Positions 13,184 to 26,015 of a stretch of DNA of 64,000 nt are shown here, piece by piece (within the stretch, counting starts at the first letter, position 1; the number at the start of each line of letters is the position of its first letter). Location: assembly GCF_000020125.1 (NCBI RefSeq), contig NC_010681.1, positions 3,162,001 through 3,226,000 of the forward strand, given 5' to 3'. The DNA comes from Paraburkholderia phytofirmans PsJN. Lineage in GTDB: Bacteria; Pseudomonadota; Gammaproteobacteria; Burkholderiales; Burkholderiaceae. The notes beneath the pieces are model-generated. The model ran no database searches and had not been told where the DNA came from. It worked only from the letters and a program-made list of their open reading frames with translations. The position numbers and the translations under genes are program-made.

Positions 13184-15229
13184 ATGGATCAATCCATCAC
13201 ATCCAGCGGCGTCACATCCGCTTCGGCGCCGGCCACCGGCAGCCGCTTCGCGCCGGGCCGCAGCCGCGATATCGTCTGCCTCGGCCGCCTCGCTGTCGAT
13301 CTGTACGCGCAGCAAGTCGGTGCGCGACTCGAAGACGTGTCGAGCTTCGCGAAGTATCTCGGTGGCTCGTCGGCGAATATCGCGTTCGGCTGCGCGCGGC
13401 TCGGCCTCGCCTCGTCGATGCTGGCGCGCGTCGGCAACGATCACATGGGCCGTTTTCTCACCGAGACGCTCACCAAGGAAGGCTGCGACGTCAGCCATGT
13501 GCGCATCGATCAGGAGCGCCTGACCGCCCTCGTGCTGCTCGGCTTAAAAGACCGCGATACTTTCCCGCTGATCTTCTATCGCGAGAATTGCGCGGACATG
13601 GCAGTCGACGAAGCGGATTTCGACGAGGCCTACATTGCGTCATCGAAGGCGTTGTTGATCACCGGCACGCACTTTTCCACCGAACAGGTGAACCGCACGA
13701 GCCGCCGCGCGCTGGACTACGCGCGCCGCAACCAGGTGCGCACCGTGCTCGACATCGACTATCGCCCGGTGTTGTGGGGTCTCACCGGTAAAGCGGACGG
13801 TGAGACGCGCTTCGTCGCGAGCGAAGGCGTCACTGCGCATTTGCAGCGCATTCTGCCGCTGTTCGATCTGGTGATCGGCACCGAGGAGGAATTCCGCATT
13901 GCAGGCGGCAAAACCGAACTGGTCGACGCACTCGCGATGGTGCGAGCCGTCACGCCGGCCACACTGGTACTGAAACGCGGACCGATGGGCTGCCAGATCA
14001 TCGACGGCGCGGTGCCCGCCTCGCTCGACGACCTGCCGATTCACGGCGGCGTGGAAGTCGAAGTGCTGAACGTGCTCGGCGCGGGCGATGCGTTCGCCTC
14101 GGGCTTTCTCTCTGGATGGCTGCGCGATCAACCGCTCGAAGCCTGCGCGCGCATTGCAAACGCGAGCGGCGCGCTGGTCGTCTCGCGCCACGGCTGCGCG
14201 CCGGCCATGCCGACGCCCGCTGAACTCGACTACTTCCTGCGCGAAGCGAAAGCGGATCCGCAGCGCATGCGCCGCCCGGATCGCGACGCAACGCTCGCAC
14301 GGCTGCATCGCGTCTCGCCGGCCCGCAAACAATGGGACGAAGTGCTCGGCTTTGCCTTCGACCATCGCAACCAGTTCTTCGAACTCGCGCAGCAAACCGG
14401 CGCTGACGATGCGCGTATTGCGCGCCTGAAGGGTCTGTTCGTCGAAGCCGTCGCGCAAACCGAAAGCGCGTTGGGTTTGCAGAACCGCATCGGTGTGCTG
14501 ATCGACGACCGCTATGGCCAGGACGCGCTGAACGCAGCGACTGGGCGCGGCTGGTGGATCGGGCGGCCGGTGGAACTGCCGGGCTCGGTGCCGCTCGTGT
14601 TCGATCATGGCCGTTCGATCGGCACCACGCTGATCCCGTGGCCGCAGGAACATATCGTGAAGTGCCTCGTGCAATTCCATCCGGACGAACCCATCGAGCA
14701 GCGGCTCGAACAGGAAGCGCAACTGCGCGCGCTCTACGACGCGACGCAAGCAAGCGGCCATGAATTGCTGCTCGAAGTGATTCCGCCGAAACACGCGCAT
14801 CTGCCGCAAGCGCCGGACACCGTGTATCGCGCGTTAAAGCGGCTGTACAACATCGGCATCTATCCCGAGTGGTGGAAGCTCGAACCGATGGACGCCGCGC
14901 AGTGGCGCAACGTCGATGCGCTGATTGCCGAGCGCGATCCGTATTGCCGGGGCGTGGTGCTGCTCGGTTTGTCGGCGGCCGTCGAGCAGCTGGACGAAGG
15001 CTTCCGCGCGGCGGCGCAATCGGCGACGTGCCGCGGCTTCACGGTCGGACGCACGATCTTCCATGAGCCGAGCCATGCGTGGCTCGCCGGAGAAATCGGC
15101 GACGACGAGTTGATCGGGCGCGTGCGCCGCACCTTCGAAACACTGATCGCTTCGTGGCGTGCAACGCGTGGCGCAAGCGCCGCGCAGTCCAGCGCACCGA
15201 AGCCTGTCCATCAGGAGCAAGCCGCATGA
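13184..15229 (+). CDS. iolC: Bifunctional 5-dehydro-2-deoxygluconokinase / DUF2090 aldolase-like protein
   Basis: 681 residues. The N-terminal PfkB carbohydrate kinase domain (about 28-350) has GGSSANIAFGCARLG and the signature VLGAGDAFASGF with the catalytic Asp. The C-terminal DUF2090 domain (about 370-660) corresponds to the 5-dehydro-2-deoxyphosphogluconate aldolase step (IolJ role). The fusion would phosphorylate 5-dehydro-2-deoxygluconate and split it to malonate semialdehyde and dihydroxyacetone phosphate. The fused form is known in proteobacteria. The stop overlaps the iolD start (ATGA). Confidence 0.93.
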   Translation: MDQSITSSGVTSASAPATGSRFAPGRSRDIVCLGRLAVDLYAQQVGARLEDVSSFAKYLGGSSANIAFGCARLGLASSMLARVGNDHMGRFLTETLTKEGCDVSHVRIDQERLTALVLLGLKDRDTFPLIFYRENCADMAVDEADFDEAYIASSKALLITGTHFSTEQVNRTSRRALDYARRNQVRTVLDIDYRPVLWGLTGKADGETRFVASEGVTAHLQRILPLFDLVIGTEEEFRIAGGKTELVDALAMVRAVTPATLVLKRGPMGCQIIDGAVPASLDDLPIHGGVEVEVLNVLGAGDAFASGFLSGWLRDQPLEACARIANASGALVVSRHGCAPAMPTPAELDYFLREAKADPQRMRRPDRDATLARLHRVSPARKQWDEVLGFAFDHRNQFFELAQQTGADDARIARLKGLFVEAVAQTESALGLQNRIGVLIDDRYGQDALNAATGRGWWIGRPVELPGSVPLVFDHGRSIGTTLIPWPQEHIVKCLVQFHPDEPIEQRLEQEAQLRALYDATQASGHELLLEVIPPKHAHLPQAPDTVYRALKRLYNIGIYPEWWKLEPMDAAQWRNVDALIAERDPYCRGVVLLGLSAAVEQLDEGFRAAAQSATCRGFTVGRTIFHEPSHAWLAGEIGDDELIGRVRRTFETLIASWRATRGASAAQSSAPKPVHQEQAA

Positions 15230-18965: not shown

Positions 18966-21323
18966 CTATTTTCTAACGGCCAGATCGACATCCAGGCCGC
19001 CGTCTTCACCCATCTTCACCGTGCCCTTCGACACGTCCTTGCGATAACCGTACAGATCGAACTTCATCACGCCGGGGTTCGAACTGTCCTTAATGAAGGT
19101 GCGCGTATTCGTCACCAGCGAGTTGAACATCTTCACGTCGCCGGACTCGATCCAGACGAAGCTCTTGCCCGCGCCCGCGGGCGGCCTCGCGGCGGCGACG
19201 TTGCCGTCGCGCTTGAACTTCAGCACGAGGCCTTCGTCGGTGACCGTCGCGCTGGCGAGACGCCCTTGCAAAACCGGCGGCGGAAACACGGTGTACTGAT
19301 CGAACACCAGCTCATTGCCCTTGAGCGCCACACCCTTGCGCGTGAACGGCGTGAGCGACGCGAGCGGAATATCCAACGCGCGCAGCAAGCCGGCCTGCGG
19401 CACGCCGAGCACCTTCACCGACGTCGGTTGATACACGAGATGCCGCTCGTCTTTCGCGACGATCGAACCGCTCATCGTGGTCGGCAGCCACACACCAGGA
19501 AAGTGATTCCATAACTTGATGCCGCTGCTCACTTCCAGTTTGCCGTCCACCGGCTTCAACTGCAAATCGTTGAGCGAGCGCGGCTCGTAGTCGAGCAGGT
19601 AGTCGTTGAAAAGCGCGGCCATCGCGGGCCACGGCTCCACGACCTCGCCGCTGATGATGCGGATATCGTACTGATCGGGATCGTCCAAGTCGACTGGTTG
19701 TCCCGGTTTTTTCGGCACCATCTGCGCGTCCAGCGTGCGCACGTGAAAACCGATGCGCCCCGACACATAGAAGTCGACATTCTCGACGTGAATCAACGGT
19801 GCGGGTCCCGACGAATGACGCTCGTTGCTCAACGCGGAACCCGGCGTCGCCATACTTTGCCCCGAGAATGCCGCGCGCGTGCCGACTGGAATCGCGCGCG
19901 CCACCGCGGCGGTCCGCATCGTCTGCGGCACGTGTTGCCAAACGAGGCGCGCCTGCGCGAGCGCGGCCTGCTGCGCGCGGATGAAGCTGTCGTTAAAGCG
20001 CGCGCTCGCGCTGCCGGTTTGCAGAGCGGTGTCTTTGTCCGCGCTGGCTAGCGTCGTATACGACGGCAGATGCACGTCCAGCGCGCCCGCTTCGTCGAAG
20101 GTGAAATAGCCCGCCGCCATCTGCTCGCGATAGTGGTACAGATCCAGCACGAACGGCGCTTTGCCGTCGACCGGCGTGAGCGCCATGTCGATGTTCATCG
20201 GCATCGAACGCATGAATTTAACGTCGCCGCCTTGCACCAGCATGCCGCGGGCGGGCATCGTCGCGGGCCAGACGATGTTCGGCACGCTCCGGTCGTCGAG
20301 CGTGAAGCGCACGCCCGCAGCGCTAGTTTCAATCTGCGTGATGGTCATATGCAACGCGGGCGGCGGCGTCAATTTGGCCACTTGCATCACGACGTCGTCG
20401 CCCTCAAGGCGCGCGATCGGCGTGTCCACTTTCAGCAGGTCGGCCATCTTCACGTGCGCGGCCTGCATCAGCTTGTCCGCGCCGACGCCGGCCACTTCGA
20501 CGTGATCGGCGTGAAAGACGAGTTCGTCGGGGTTGCGCATCGACAGCGATCCGCTCAGCACGATCGGCACCCAGGTATCACGATGCATTTCGCCGGTAAT
20601 GCGCAGATTGCCGCCGTCCTGCGGCATGACACGCATGTTGCGCAAAGGCGAGCCCTGATACTGGAACAGATAACGGTTGAAGATCGCCGTGAGCTTCGCG
20701 GTGTCGAGCGTCACATGGCCGCGGTGGACGTTGATCGTCACGCTGGTCGGATCGTCGAATACGATCGGCTGGCCGGGACGCGCCGGGCTCAGCGTCGCCG
20801 CCATGTCGTGAATCATGAAGCCGATGTCGCCGGTCACGCGAAAGTCGACATCGCGCGCGAACATCAGCGAGCCGTCGATGCCGGAATCGCGCAGCGTCAG
20901 CGGACGGCTGCGTTTTTCAGTCATTCCGCTCGCCGATGGCACGCGCGCAGCGATGCTTTGCTCCACGGCGAGTTGTTTCGCCTTGGCGAGTTCGAGGGCG
21001 GGTCGCGTCGACGAAGCGGGTCGAGCGGCGAGCGCAGTGTCCGGCGATGTCGTGACATTCGCGCGGACGCCGGTGGTGCTGGCTTCGTTGCTTGATGCAC
21101 TGGTTGTCGCGTTCGCGGAATTTGACGGCGCAGACGCCGTATCGCTGGTTGTCGAGCTCGCGTCGGCGCAGGCGGACATCAGCAGCGCGGCTGTCATCAA
21201 CGTGGCGCCCGCGCAGATCGGCGTGTACCACCAGGCGTAGTTCGACCTCAGACCTTGCAGCGAGTGCGTCGATGTCCGCGGATCATTCGCCGACGCCACA
21301 TGCAATGCGCGTCTCTGTCTCAT
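18966..21323 (-). CDS. Large two-lobed lipoprotein of unknown function
   Basis: 785 residues from the ATG at 21323, preceded by AGGAGGAG. A hydrophobic segment (about 35-51) ends in LLMSAC, a plausible lipobox with Cys52, so probably a lipoprotein. A Ser/Thr/Ala-rich linker (53-135) precedes two related beta-rich lobes, about 158-420 and 516-785. Each starts with VDF-x-V-x-G-x-IGF, has a PGQP-x4-DDP segment and a PLRN/SLND-like turn, and ends with DLY-x-YR and GALDV/GGLDV. I recognise no family. It faces iolB tail to tail 41 bp away and is probably not part of that operon. Confidence 0.8.
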   Translation of the reverse strand: MRQRRALHVASANDPRTSTHSLQGLRSNYAWWYTPICAGATLMTAALLMSACADASSTTSDTASAPSNSANATTSASSNEASTTGVRANVTTSPDTALAARPASSTRPALELAKAKQLAVEQSIAARVPSASGMTEKRSRPLTLRDSGIDGSLMFARDVDFRVTGDIGFMIHDMAATLSPARPGQPIVFDDPTSVTINVHRGHVTLDTAKLTAIFNRYLFQYQGSPLRNMRVMPQDGGNLRITGEMHRDTWVPIVLSGSLSMRNPDELVFHADHVEVAGVGADKLMQAAHVKMADLLKVDTPIARLEGDDVVMQVAKLTPPPALHMTITQIETSAAGVRFTLDDRSVPNIVWPATMPARGMLVQGGDVKFMRSMPMNIDMALTPVDGKAPFVLDLYHYREQMAAGYFTFDEAGALDVHLPSYTTLASADKDTALQTGSASARFNDSFIRAQQAALAQARLVWQHVPQTMRTAAVARAIPVGTRAAFSGQSMATPGSALSNERHSSGPAPLIHVENVDFYVSGRIGFHVRTLDAQMVPKKPGQPVDLDDPDQYDIRIISGEVVEPWPAMAALFNDYLLDYEPRSLNDLQLKPVDGKLEVSSGIKLWNHFPGVWLPTTMSGSIVAKDERHLVYQPTSVKVLGVPQAGLLRALDIPLASLTPFTRKGVALKGNELVFDQYTVFPPPVLQGRLASATVTDEGLVLKFKRDGNVAAARPPAGAGKSFVWIESGDVKMFNSLVTNTRTFIKDSSNPGVMKFDLYGYRKDVSKGTVKMGEDGGLDVDLAVRK

Positions 21324-21714
21324 GATGTCTCCTCCTGAAGCCGTGACGCGTTCTTCGCGCGCCGGGCACGACATGGTTCGTCGCGCATACCGCGGCTTTA
21401 AACAGCAAGCCGCCGTCACGCGTCTTTACCCGATTGTCTTTATTTGTCAGCGCGCTGCCGACAAGATTTCTGGAGGACGCTCACCAAACGATCAAGCGTT
21501 TGAATCGCAGCGGCGGGCGAGCGGAGAGCCGCGTGCACGGGGCGTGAGCGACGCGTGGACAAATCGGATTCAAACGGCACGAATGGCGCGATTCGAGCGG
21601 TCTGCGCGGACCCGGCGACTCATTCGACGCAAGAAGCATTCGGCAAGGACAGCACAACGGCCACCCATCACCGCGCGGCGCCGCAATAAAACGCCGCTAG
21701 CGGACGTCGATCGA
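21324..21714. other. Intergenic stretch with a small palindrome
   Basis: 391 bp between two leftward genes. It must hold the promoter of the two-lobed lipoprotein. CAAACG-ATCAAG-CGTTTG (21485-21502) is a 6-bp inverted repeat that could be an operator. No convincing ORF or RNA gene. Confidence 0.4.
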
Positions 21715-22428
21715 TCAACCGACGCCGAGCCATTCCCGCATCACGTCCGCCCGCTGCACGAACGACGCGAGCGCGCCGTCGAACACGATTTCGCCGTGCC
21801 CCATCACCGCGACGCGGCTGGCGATGTCCTGCGCAATCACGAGACGCTGCTCGATCAGCAGCATCGCCACGCCGCGATCGCGCAAAGTCCGCAAGCACTG
21901 CGCGACCTGCTCCATCACGAGACTCGCGAGACCCTCACCGGGTTCGTCGATAACGAGCAGATCGGGATCGCCAAGGAGCGCGCGAGCGAGTGTCAGCATC
22001 TGCTGCTCGCCGCCCGAGAGCGCGCCCGCGCGCGTGCGCTTTCGTTCGCGCAGTATGGGGAAAAGCGCGTAGGCATCGTCGAAGGTGAAGCGCGGCGCGC
22101 AGCCGCGATCCCGTGGCGCGACGCCGAGTTGCAGATTCTCGTGCACGCTCAGCGCCGGAAATACGTCGCGATGTTCGGGCACATAGCCGAGTCCGAGACG
22201 CGCGATCTCGAAGGTGCGCAGACCGCCGAGCGGTCGGCCCGCGAAACGCAACTCGCCTTCGCTGCGCACGAGGCCCATGATCGCGCGCGCGAGCGTCGAG
22301 CGGCCCGAGCCGTTACGGCCGACCAGCGCCAGCACTTCGCCCGCTTCGATGCTGAGCGTGACGCCGTGCAGCGCCTGGCTCGCGCCGTACCACGCGTTCA
22401 GCGCGCGAATCTCCAGCAAGGCGCTCAT
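21715..22428 (-). CDS. livF: Branched-chain amino acid-type ABC transporter ATP-binding protein LivF
   Basis: 237 residues. Signature LSGGEQQ and Walker B LLVIDEP are canonical. Walker A reads GRNGSGRST, with Arg43 where the invariant Lys is expected (codon at 22300-22302). This is the clearest anomaly of the operon and could slow or abolish ATP hydrolysis in this subunit. ATG at 22428 overlaps the livG stop by four bases. It is last in the leftward thioesterase-livHMGF operon. Confidence 0.9.
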   Translation of the reverse strand: MSALLEIRALNAWYGASQALHGVTLSIEAGEVLALVGRNGSGRSTLARAIMGLVRSEGELRFAGRPLGGLRTFEIARLGLGYVPEHRDVFPALSVHENLQLGVAPRDRGCAPRFTFDDAYALFPILRERKRTRAGALSGGEQQMLTLARALLGDPDLLVIDEPGEGLASLVMEQVAQCLRTLRDRGVAMLLIEQRLVIAQDIASRVAVMGHGEIVFDGALASFVQRADVMREWLGVG

Positions 22429-23177
22429 GTGCCGAATCCTTCGCCGAGATAGGCGGCGCGCACTGTCTCGTCCGCGCGGATCGCCGCCGGCGTGCCGCTC
22501 GCGATGATGCGTCCTTGCACGAGCACCGAAATGCGATCGGCGATCGCGAAGACCGCGTCCATGTCGTGCTCGACCATCAACAGCGTGCGGCCCGCCGTGG
22601 TCTCGCGAATCAGTTCGATGGTGCGCGCCGCTTCCGCGCGATTCATGCCGGCCGTCGGCTCGTCGAGCAGCAAGGTATGCGCGCCGCCCGCGAGCGCGAT
22701 GCCGAGATCGAGCGCGCGCTGCTCGGCATAGCTGAGCGTGCCGGCCTGAACGTGGCGGCGCTCGGTCAGGCCCACCGCGTCGAGCACTTGTGCGGCGCGC
22801 GCGTCGACCGTTGGCGAGCCGCTGAAACGCTGCCACCAGCGCGTGCGGTCACGCTCAGCCAGCATCGCCGCGCAGCGCAGGTTGTCGAACACGCTGAGGC
22901 GCGTGAACACGCTGGTGCTCTGGAAGCTGCGCGCAAGTCCGCGACGCGTGATCGCGGCCGGCGCGAGCCGCGTGATCTCGGCGCCGAACAGATCGATGCG
23001 CCCCGCGTTCGGCCGCGCGCCGCCGGCGATCAGATTGAAGAGCGTCGACTTGCCCGCGCCGTTCGGACCGATCAGCGCGTGACGCTCGCCCGGTTGGATC
23101 GCGAGATCGACGCCGCGCAGAATCCGCGTCGAGCCGAAGCGTTTTTCGATGCCGTAGAGCGCGAGCGCGGGGATCAT
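22425..23177 (-). CDS. livG: Branched-chain amino acid-type ABC transporter ATP-binding protein LivG
   Basis: 250 residues. Walker A GPNGAGKST, signature-like LSYAEQR and Walker B TLLLDEP are present. The pair LivG/LivF would energise LivHM at the inner membrane. Start taken at the ATG at 23177 with CCGGAG upstream; the frame stays open further upstream only through the tandem repeat. That ATG overlaps the stop of a 55-codon ORF sitting between livM and livG. Confidence 0.9.
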   Translation of the reverse strand: MIPALALYGIEKRFGSTRILRGVDLAIQPGERHALIGPNGAGKSTLFNLIAGGARPNAGRIDLFGAEITRLAPAAITRRGLARSFQSTSVFTRLSVFDNLRCAAMLAERDRTRWWQRFSGSPTVDARAAQVLDAVGLTERRHVQAGTLSYAEQRALDLGIALAGGAHTLLLDEPTAGMNRAEAARTIELIRETTAGRTLLMVEHDMDAVFAIADRISVLVQGRIIASGTPAAIRADETVRAAYLGEGFGT

Positions 23178-23341
23178 CGCGAGGCTCCGGTGGTGGGGGT
23201 GACGCTTGAATGCGTAGTTGCGAGATGCGCTCGCGCGCGAATTGCCGGCAGCGGGATCGTCAAGGCACCGGCGGTGCGCGTGGCGCTTGAGCGCGTGGTG
23301 GCGAGATGCGCTTGCCTGAGAATTGCGAGCGCGGAGATCAT
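23174..23341 (-). CDS. Small coupled ORF created by duplication between livM and livG
   Basis: 55 codons. Its ATG overlaps the livM stop (ATGA at 23338-23341), its own stop overlaps the livG ATG (ATGA at 23174-23177), and CCGGAG lies upstream. Its C-terminus (SSVTPTTGASR) copies the LivM C-terminus (SNVTPTAGASR). So the ORF is made of duplicated livM-tail/livG-head sequence. Probably not a functional protein, but it keeps the ribosome chain from livM to livG unbroken. Confidence 0.35.
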   Translation of the reverse strand: MISALAILRQAHLATTRSSATRTAGALTIPLPAIRARAHLATTHSSVTPTTGASR

Positions 23342-23366
23342 CGCGAAGCTCCGGCGGTGGGGGTGA
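23177..23366 (-). repeat. Degenerate tandem repeat of about 82 bp at the livM-livG junction
   Basis: Read on the minus strand, units begin near GCGTCACCCCCACC and run through GGAGC-TTCGCGATGATC, CGCTCGCAATTC and GCGCATCTCGC. ATGATC occurs at 23341 and 23177; the middle unit has ACGATC near 23260. Spacing is about 81 and 83 bp. The outer units match best; the middle one has decayed. Confidence 0.75.
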
Positions 23367-24630
23367 CGTTTGAGCGTAATGCTGCGAACAACGCTTGCGC
23401 GCGCCTCGCGTAATGAGCGGCCAGTCCTCCCAACGCGGCCAGCACAAAGACCGTGGCGCCGAAGTAAACCGGCGACGCGATGATCCACGACGGCACGCCA
23501 GGCACACTGAATACCGCGCCGTCGCCCGCATCGAATTGCGCGGCGTAGGCCCATTGCACGGCGAGCACGGCGGCCACGCTCCACAGCAATGCGGCAACCG
23601 CGCCCCACCCATACGCAGCCCCGCACCGGCTCCAACCGTGCGCGGCCACCCGCGCCATAAAACGCCGCGCGAAGCCCGCCAATCCATCCGGCGACATCAT
23701 CACGATCACGATAAAGAACAGCCCCAGATAAAACAGCCAGGCGCGCGTGACGCTCGCCACCGCGACGCTGAAAAACGTCAGAACGACCGCACCCGCGACC
23801 GGCCCGAAAAACGCCGCCGTGCCGCCGATCACCGTGGCGATCAACACCGCGCCCGAGCGCATCATGCCGACGCTTTCCGTCGACACCAACTCCACATTGA
23901 TCAGCGCCAACGTCCCCGCGATACCCGCGAAAAACGCCGACATCACCACGACGCCGTAGCGAACGCGGCGCGGGCAGCAGCCGATCGCCGCAGCCCGCAC
24001 GGGGTTGTCGCGCACCGCATTGGCAAGCCGCATGAAAGGCGTGCGCGAAAGCGCGAACATCATCGCGCACGCGAGCAGGCACCACACCGCGATGAGCGCA
24101 TAAGCCTCGCGCGCCGGGCCGAAGCTCCAGCTTCCCAGCGGCACGCCGCTCGCGCGATCGATCGCCACGCCCGCCTCACCGCCGAACCAGTCGGGCAGCG
24201 TCCACGCCGCAGCCGCGACGAGTTCGCCGAGACCGAGCGTGATCATCGCGAAGGCCGTGCCGGCGCGCCGCGTCGATATGAAGCCGAACAGCACGCCGCA
24301 CAGCGCACCGCCAATTCCGCCGACCAGCGGCAGCAGCGCGAGCGGCACGCCGATCCGGTTGAACACCTGCGCGGCCATCAGCGCGCCCAGGCCCGAGTAA
24401 GCGGCATGACCGAACGACAGCAGCCCCGTCTCGCCGAGCAGCAGGTTGTATGAAAGCGCGAACACGATCATCGTCGCGGTCTGCGCGAGATAGGCGAGCA
24501 GCCAGCTTTGCGGCCAAACAAAGGGAGGCACCGCAAGGAACAGAATCAGCGCAAGCCACGGCGCGAGCACGCGCCAACGCGCATGCGGCTCGGCCTTGGA
24601 TTTCGCTGACGATCCGCCGGCTTCACGCAT
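23338..24630 (-). CDS. livM: Branched-chain amino acid-type ABC transporter permease LivM
   Basis: 430 residues, multi-pass inner-membrane permease with the family core SYNLLLGETGLLSFGHAAYSG split across about residues 60-80 and the EAA-like region RTPFMRLANAVRDNPVRAAA. After the core it has about 70 extra residues with two more hydrophobic segments (about 355-420), longer than most LivM proteins. The first 8 bp overlap livH. The C-terminal codons lie at the edge of a tandem duplication. Confidence 0.9.
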   Translation of the reverse strand: MREAGGSSAKSKAEPHARWRVLAPWLALILFLAVPPFVWPQSWLLAYLAQTATMIVFALSYNLLLGETGLLSFGHAAYSGLGALMAAQVFNRIGVPLALLPLVGGIGGALCGVLFGFISTRRAGTAFAMITLGLGELVAAAAWTLPDWFGGEAGVAIDRASGVPLGSWSFGPAREAYALIAVWCLLACAMMFALSRTPFMRLANAVRDNPVRAAAIGCCPRRVRYGVVVMSAFFAGIAGTLALINVELVSTESVGMMRSGAVLIATVIGGTAAFFGPVAGAVVLTFFSVAVASVTRAWLFYLGLFFIVIVMMSPDGLAGFARRFMARVAAHGWSRCGAAYGWGAVAALLWSVAAVLAVQWAYAAQFDAGDGAVFSVPGVPSWIIASPVYFGATVFVLAALGGLAAHYARRAQALFAALRSNVTPTAGASR

Positions 24631-25561
24631 GATCGTCGCGCCGTCCGAACAGGCCGCGCGGGCGCAGCGCCAGCATCGCCACCAGCAGCAGATACGGAAT
24701 CAGCGGCGCGAGTTGCGCGAGCGTCAACGCGTCCCATTCGACGGGGAGCGTGGCATCGAAGATCGACAGCACGTCGCCCAGCGACACATTGCTCGCCACG
24801 GCCAGCGTCTGCACGCAACCGACCAGCAGCGACGCCGCCAGCGCTCCACCCAGCGAACCCAGCCCGCCGATCACGACCACCACGAACACGATCGAGCCGA
24901 GCGACTCCGCCATTCCCGGCTCGATCACGAAGAGCGGCGCGCCGATCACGCCGGCCAGCGCGGCGAGCGCCGTGCCGGCCGCGAACACGCCGGTGAACAC
25001 GCGCGGCACGTTGTGGCCGAGCGCTTCGACGGCGCTCGCGTGCGTGAGCGCGGCGCGCACGATCAGCCCCGCCTTCGACACGCGCAACACCGCGAACAGT
25101 ACGGCGAGCATGGCGAGCGACACCGCCATCATGAACGCGCGGTAGCGGGCGAACGCCGCGCCGTAGACGGTGAAGAGCGGCCCGTCGAGCACCGCGGGCA
25201 CGGTCGCGGACAACGGGCTCAGGCCCCAGCCGAGCTTGACCAGTTCGCCGAGCAGATACGCGGCGCCGAACGTCAGCAGCAACTCGGCAAGATGGCCCTG
25301 CACGCGCACCCGCCGTAACAGCCAACGCTCGAGCGCTGCGCCGATCAGCCCGACGACGAGCGGCGCGACGACCAATGCGCTCCAGAACCCCTCGCGCGCC
25401 GCCACCGAAAACCCGACATACGCGCCGAGCATGTAAAAACTCGCATGCGCGAAGTTCAGCACGCCGAGCATGCTGAAAATCAGCGTCAGGCCCGCCGACA
25501 GCATGAACAGCAGCAAGCCGTAACTGACGCCGTTGAGCAGATTGATGACGAACGACTGCAC
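24623..25561 (-). CDS. livH: Branched-chain amino acid-type ABC transporter permease LivH
   Basis: 312 residues from GTG at 25561, giving the usual LivH beginning QSFVINLLNGVSYGLL. The GTG lies 5 bp after the thioesterase stop. A TTG at 25585 would add eight residues and overlap that gene. Neither has a clear ribosome site, so coupling to the upstream gene is likely. About eight transmembrane segments. No binding-protein gene (livJ/K) is in this cluster, so substrate is not deducible. Confidence 0.9.
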   Translation of the reverse strand: MQSFVINLLNGVSYGLLLFMLSAGLTLIFSMLGVLNFAHASFYMLGAYVGFSVAAREGFWSALVVAPLVVGLIGAALERWLLRRVRVQGHLAELLLTFGAAYLLGELVKLGWGLSPLSATVPAVLDGPLFTVYGAAFARYRAFMMAVSLAMLAVLFAVLRVSKAGLIVRAALTHASAVEALGHNVPRVFTGVFAAGTALAALAGVIGAPLFVIEPGMAESLGSIVFVVVVIGGLGSLGGALAASLLVGCVQTLAVASNVSLGDVLSIFDATLPVEWDALTLAQLAPLIPYLLLVAMLALRPRGLFGRRDDHA

Positions 25562-25565
25562 GCGC

Positions 25566-26015
25566 CTAGTCCGGCTGTTCTGCAACGCTCAACGGTTCGA
25601 GCGCCGCGCGCAATTCGGCGGGCAGATTGACCGGGCGCCGTGTGACACGATTCACATACACATGCACGAAGTGTCCTTGCGCGGCGGGTTGATCTTCGCC
25701 TTCCTTGAAGAGACCCACCTGATAGCGCACGCTCGAGGTGCCGAGCCGTATCACGCGCAGACCCGCGTCGATCCGCTCGGGAAACACCACCGGCGCGAAG
25801 TAGTTGCACTGCGTCTCCACCACGAGGCCGATCGTCTCGCCCCGCTCGAAATCGAGCACGCCGGTGCGAAGCAGATACTCGTTCACCACGGTGTCGAAGT
25901 AACTGTAGTAGACGACGTTGTTCACGTGACCGTAGACGTCGTTATCCATCCAGCGGGTAGGGATCGTTAGGAAATGCGGGTAGGCGCCGCGCGGGGCGGA
26001 TGCGGGTTTGTTCAT
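25566..26015 (-). CDS. Hotdog-fold acyl-CoA thioesterase (4HBT family)
   Basis: 149 residues. RWMDNDVYGHVNNVVYYSYF contains the Asp of the YbgC-like active site and the family N-terminal helix. Would hydrolyse a short- or medium-chain acyl-CoA in the cytoplasm. It is the first gene of the leftward unit with livHMGF, 4 bp or less from livH, hinting that the imported substrate is degraded through a CoA ester. Confidence 0.88.
   Translation of the reverse strand: MNKPASAPRGAYPHFLTIPTRWMDNDVYGHVNNVVYYSYFDTVVNEYLLRTGVLDFERGETIGLVVETQCNYFAPVVFPERIDAGLRVIRLGTSSVRYQVGLFKEGEDQPAAQGHFVHVYVNRVTRRPVNLPAELRAALEPLSVAEQPD

Follow-up and report, generated by a model that had tools for sequence, protein, structure and literature searches.

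The protein P0001 is encoded by an intact open reading frame of 785 residues at positions 18966-21323 on the minus strand of the window, by which we mean the whole stretch of 64,000 nucleotides of Paraburkholderia phytofirmans PsJN DNA that was analyzed; on the plus strand, reading of the same interval is interrupted by stops. All features of the gene given below lie on the minus strand. An AGGAGG at 21331-21336, upstream of the start ATG at 21323, is a strong Shine-Dalgarno sequence. Inside the gene there is no promoter-like site and one terminator-like site, fewer than shuffled sequences hold on average. The gene sits between an inositol cluster, which the Pfam hits would identify as iol, and a branched-chain amino-acid-type ABC transporter, whose genes lie upstream on the same strand (21715-25585). 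The neighboring cluster's sugar kinase (13184-15229, plus strand) has a PfkB domain fused to DUF2090.

The protein begins with a signal sequence ending in the lipobox ALLMSAC (21168-21323), so the lipobox of the original prediction was found as described, with Cys52 as the predicted lipidation site and Ala at position +2. The combination of signal sequence, lipobox, and cysteine that defines a bacterial lipoprotein is found at Cys52 by pattern match alone. A lipobox is also carried by 50 of the 55 fused proteins of the genome scan described below (a strict pattern recognizes 30 and a relaxed one another 20, while the remaining 5 gave none), and the +2 residue is Ala in 47 of these 50 as well as in the window protein. 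Under the Lol rule of E. coli, Ala at +2 means the outer membrane, which would place the fused protein there. We infer that Cys52 is lipidated and that the protein is located at the outer membrane.

An A/S/T-rich linker follows Cys52 (residues 53-105, 21009-21167; its length varies among relatives), succeeded by the N-terminal segment of lobe A, which contains AKAKQL and a conserved TLRDSG (residues 106-150, 20874-21008). The 86 residues from 53 to 138 include 20 A, 16 S, and 12 T, and among the 33 fused relatives (of 55) in which the distance was measured, RDSG lies 45-113 residues from the cysteine. In Paraburkholderia sp. DHOC27 (L087), the part of the fused gene that precedes lobe A has expanded into a long NAT tripeptide repeat.

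The two lobes

Lobe A covers about residues 151-428 (20040-20873) and lobe B residues 509-785 (18969-19799). Each lobe has a C-terminal module, of the form GGDVKF...DLYHYR...GALDV in lobe A (residues 361-418, 20070-20243) and SGDVKMF...DLYGYR...GGLDVDL in lobe B (residues 722-781, 18981-19160). When residues 146-440 are compared with residues 501-785, 80 of 277 aligned columns are identical (29%, BLASTP E 2e-35), and the local alignment score of 298 stands against 34.7 +/- 5.2, with a maximum of 58, for 1000 shuffles. The proposed kinship of the lobes thus goes far beyond chance. The common opening, PGQP-x4-DDP block, and DLY-x-YR ending attributed to the lobes are present and largely conserved across eight lobes from four proteins, and polar residues occur among the conserved blocks DDP, PPP, GGD, and DLYxYR. 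A single insertion sets the lobes apart, which reads KLWNHFPGVWLP in lobe B and a shorter R-xxWVP in lobe A. When the host genome was searched with lobe B, both lobes of the gene itself came up, besides one match at chance level (E 0.5).

Adjacent A and B genes in other bacteria

A protein search with residues 150-785 found 146 relatives, and those named among the 120 listed come from Paraburkholderia, Burkholderia, and Trinickia. Searching with a lobe profile gave 56 proteins at E <=1, part of which are fragments of two-lobe proteins; the single-lobe proteins among them come from Ralstonia, a Cycloclasticus symbiont, and Salinisphaera. When species genomes were scanned, 104 loci could be confirmed, of which the best 80 were examined; many of these 80 are close kin, and they represent about 8 independent lineages. 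Both lobes adjoin on the same strand in all of the best 80, and neither a lone A nor a lone B occurs among them. In 55 of the 80 loci, all in Burkholderia, Paraburkholderia, and Trinickia, the lobes are fused as one open frame. The other 25 are split into two adjacent genes on one strand, always in the order A then B and never reversed: 10 belong to Ralstonia and two Burkholderiaceae that group with Ralstonia, 9 to Cycloclasticus and other Piscirickettsiaceae, and the rest to Rhodoferax (2), one member of the Rhodocyclales, two gammaproteobacterial MAGs, and Salinisphaera. By match counts only, lobes occur in 74 of 299 genomes sampled from the window's family, 3 of 300 from its order, and 4 of 369 from its class, with at least two matches in each positive genome.

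Some copies depart from this picture. Three genomes hold far more divergent A-B pairs (L131, 4715-7188; L132, 4579-7052; L130, 4015-6176), in genomes G790 and G576 a divergent pair exists alongside another copy, and in genome G898 one copy (L133) is broken across reading frames, with intact copies elsewhere. No plasmid copies of the lobes were found.

Phylogenetic analysis of 74 of the 162 lobes, taken from all 25 split pairs, 11 of the 55 fused proteins, and the window protein, grouped the first genes with lobe A and the second genes with lobe B. A single branch (100/99) separates the 25 first genes and 12 fused A lobes from the 25 second genes and 12 fused B lobes, in a tree that was rooted at the midpoint and whose long branches, the Salinisphaera rows above all, are possibly misplaced. 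By sequence comparison, the duplication that produced A and B predates the fusion, and each of the window's lobes has its ortholog in a separate gene of other bacteria, where these two genes lie side by side.

The stretch between the lobes carries a mark of this fusion. Split B proteins have an apparent signal peptide (judged by eye) followed by a segment like SLIERQQTELHQQQLQW, and we built profiles of the N-terminal segments from 24 of the 25 split B genes and 23 of the 25 split A genes. The B profile matched the inter-lobe stretch in all 52 fused proteins tested (52 of 55; best E 4e-7, median 1.3e-5). With the A profile nothing fell below E 0.01 (best 1.0), and shuffled stretches reached at best E 0.089. 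This pattern of matches shows that the inter-lobe linker includes the N-terminal segment of protein B, minus its signal peptide. In the window protein this relic lies at about residues 440-472 (SFIRAQQAALAQARLVW, 19908-20006), and the whole inter-lobe stretch is at least 73 residues long in the 52 fused proteins measured. In correction of the original prediction, inter-lobe residues 429-508 are not a featureless linker but keep the B segment.

Anchors differ among the split A proteins. The Ralstonia A genes carry a lipobox (LLLQSC or alike), 8 by pattern and two (L064 and L077) by eye, the pattern missing these two despite a readable LLLQSC, and the Salinisphaera A protein has a hydrophobic, anchor-like N-terminal stretch. 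Since 14 of the 25 split A genes, in the Rhodoferax, Rhodocyclales, Methylococcaceae, and Cycloclasticus groups, show neither a lipobox nor an anchor-like stretch, anchoring is not shared by all members of the family. By the strict and relaxed patterns none of the 25 split B genes has a lipobox; one of them (L050) was picked up by another, different filter.

The surroundings of the pair are conserved within a genus. Among the 14 loci listed of 35 compared, and leaving aside frames that overlap the pair, no neighbor is common to three or more of nine groups and a few are common to two. Because neighbors differ between groups and are conserved only inside a genus, the pair appears to form a unit of its own. 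The gene neighbors indicated no pathway.

Comparison with LmeA and other TULIP proteins

Searched alone, the window protein gave no usable match in Pfam, NCBIfam, or the PDB, including none to PF11209 (LmeA). Its relatives were more informative. We scanned 45 of 121 proteins (P0001-P0121) against Pfam, and PF11209 was matched by 14 of these 45 natural two-lobe relatives (best E 3.2e-5) and missed by 31, the next-best family being matched by 3. Four of ten relatives scanned singly matched LmeA, all inside lobe A and over positions 60-195 or 83-216 of the 217 in the model; natural lobe B gave no match among these ten. Of ten domain consensuses, 7 had no match and 3 did: lobe A of the fused proteins (E 4.9e-6, 27.2 bits), the Salinisphaera-type A (E 0.0043), and B from Rhodoferax and gammaproteobacteria (E 0.069). 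These three fall at LmeA positions 60-216, 84-215, and 60-168 with a common offset of 37, and in another set of consensuses 1 of 6 matched (0.035). The reported bit scores reach 21.8 for natural proteins and 27.2 for consensuses, below the Pfam cut-off of 27.3 for PF11209.

Ten consensuses that had been reversed or shuffled gave no LmeA match. One shuffled control did match an unrelated family at 0.0088, so single weak matches mean little and the weight lies with many consistent ones. Among mainly single-lobe members 1 of 42 matched LmeA (0.018), and an unrelated family reached 0.012 in the same scan. NCBIfam searches with ten single-lobe relatives and one consensus, and PDB profile searches with two family alignments, gave nothing convincing.

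Collinearity with the later portion of the LmeA model, where the TULIP domain lies, is thus seen in lobe A of the relatives, not in the window protein alone. When its position is transferred from the relatives, the LmeA-like stretch covers about residues 167-342 of lobe A (20298-20825), and the C-terminal module lies outside it. We conclude from these profile comparisons that the lobes are distantly related to LmeA/DUF2993 (PF11209), a phospholipid-binding domain of the TULIP type. For lobe B the link to LmeA runs mainly by way of lobe A, to which it is clearly related. The earlier view that the lobes are divergent copies of one domain on a lipobox-bearing chain, with no Pfam name at Pfam's own cut-off, stands. 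The PF11209 matches of the relatives speak against the further statement that no known family is recognized. So does the public name of a single-lobe relative from Ralstonia (P0134), "LmeA family phospholipid-binding protein"; three others (P0135, P0138, and P0143) are named "DUF2993." These four belong to the same family as separate, unfused B proteins and share 51-53% identity with lobe B; their public name gives no hint of an adjoining A partner. Kinship with LmeA/DUF2993 would also narrow the suggested binding role to lipid binding.

LmeA binds phospholipids and is required to maintain the mannosyltransferase MptA under stress, according to PMC7643837. In PMC6791001, LmeA is said to carry a TULIP domain and DUF2993 to consist of Chorein-N plus a TULIP domain. 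The likeness of the present family to LmeA extends over at most about 175 residues of lobe A, collinear with LmeA positions 60-216, and both are exported envelope proteins, LmeA being a mycobacterial periplasmic phospholipid-binding protein. They differ in that two paralogous lobes or two genes stand here in place of one, and in the extra C-terminal GGD...DLYxYR module beyond the LmeA match. LmeA also has a transmembrane anchor (PMC6791001), in contrast to the lipobox found here. The Pfam model of LmeA matched none of 249 sampled genomes of Pseudomonadota at E 1e-3, and LmeA itself was found in none of three actinobacterial plasmid records.

Two other TULIP families invite comparison. DUF4403 (PF14356) is described in PMC6791001 as a pseudo-dimeric bacterial TULIP, and it resembles the present protein in having two related domains per chain that are often lipid-anchored with an outer-membrane-type +2 residue. 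However, we found no convincing sequence kinship: the match of the lobes to the DUF4403 profile is weak, equaled by 1 of 60 shuffles, and no further DUF4403 members came from a wider search. Separate A and B genes are not mentioned for DUF4403 in the text consulted. YceB (DUF1439, PF07273), a lipid-anchored TULIP protein of Gram-negative envelopes (PMC6791001), differs in having a single domain without a profile match to the lobes. The hhalign probabilities were at most 4.6% and were exceeded by reversed controls, with the best alignments lying over the region of the signal peptide; YceB and DUF4403 recognized each other in the same comparison (53%).

Proposed function and alternatives

We estimate at roughly 60% the probability that two LmeA-like (TULIP-type) lipid-binding domains form a heterodimer here, joined covalently in one chain that the lipid on Cys52 tethers to the envelope. 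Each lobe would form a greasy tube for the uptake of phospholipid or some other amphipathic lipid, and A and B would dock, perhaps end to end like BPI-type pseudo-dimers, into a longer lipid-binding body. Most bacterial TULIPs are able to dimerize like BPI (PMC6791001). The lipid on the A side would hold the protein at a membrane, probably the outer membrane on its inner face. With its long A/S/T-rich linker the protein might extend into the periplasm and carry or buffer lipids there. The pairing of A and B in every locus examined, together with their fusion, suggests that they act together, the simplest form being a heterodimer that would have been made permanent in Burkholderia and its kin. 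The C-terminal GGD...DLYxYR module, present in both lobes, might speculatively form the contact between A and B, and the insertion in lobe B is possibly a difference at the mouth of the tube.

A fused heterodimer has to be weighed against a two-domain lipid-binding lipoprotein whose lobes work in series or independently and do not dock, fusion merely saving a signal peptide and equalizing the dose of A and B. The length of the inter-lobe stretch would suit this arrangement, adjacency is not proof of contact between A and B, and co-expression alone can explain it. We nevertheless regard independent lobes as unlikely, since the absence of any lone A or B among 80 loci is a strong partnership for mere promoter-sharing, and the A-B order is reversed in none of the 25 split pairs.

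Still less favored is an LmeA-like fold with a non-lipid ligand, for instance a glycan of the envelope or a partner protein, acting as a scaffold or chaperone for envelope biogenesis. The dependence of MptA on LmeA under stress (PMC7643837) and the polar residues of the conserved blocks would fit such a role, but LmeA itself binds phospholipids according to the same text, and no pointer to a glycan emerged from our analysis. The least probable of the alternatives is a new beta-rich domain unrelated to TULIP, with the LmeA matches reflecting convergent beta-strand patterns. All reported LmeA scores are indeed below threshold, the comparisons with DUF4403 and YceB are weak or no better than reversed controls, and other families were weakly matched by one to three members, with the shuffled control at 0.0088 as a warning. 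Convergence would, however, have to explain why no family but LmeA finds matches in many members, and why its matches keep one register across separate subfamilies, with no match among the ten controls.

Extending the fused heterodimer of LmeA-like domains to the whole family gives a broader proposal, which we hold more tentatively and put at slightly short of even odds. The pair would be an undescribed, obligately heterodimeric LmeA/TULIP device for lipid transfer or buffering in Pseudomonadota, with an A protein that is lipid-anchored in Ralstonia, apparently membrane-anchored in Salinisphaera, and secreted in other lineages, partnered by a periplasmic B; the two would stem from an old duplication. 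They would stay together as a self-contained two-gene unit while the neighborhoods change, and would have been welded into a pseudo-dimeric outer-membrane lipoprotein in Burkholderia and its kin. The family itself is a new remote variant of the LmeA-like TULIP proteins with an A-B organization that we did not find reported: searches on LmeA, DUF2993, and TULIP, with most subscription papers outside their scope, returned no published description of the two-lobe protein or of an A-B pair.

The movement of phospholipids between the two Gram-negative membranes is a partly open question, and the TULIP-type proteins there are few and little studied. If the proposal is right, a self-contained A-B pair that occurs naturally both split and fused would offer a ready test of whether such domains function as heterodimers, and LmeA-like proteins would be extended to the Pseudomonadota. 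The two-lobe gene is not the host's sole TULIP-type candidate, since the genome also encodes a YceB/DUF1439 protein outside the window (G000:C3:3512921-3513319, E 8.4e-14).
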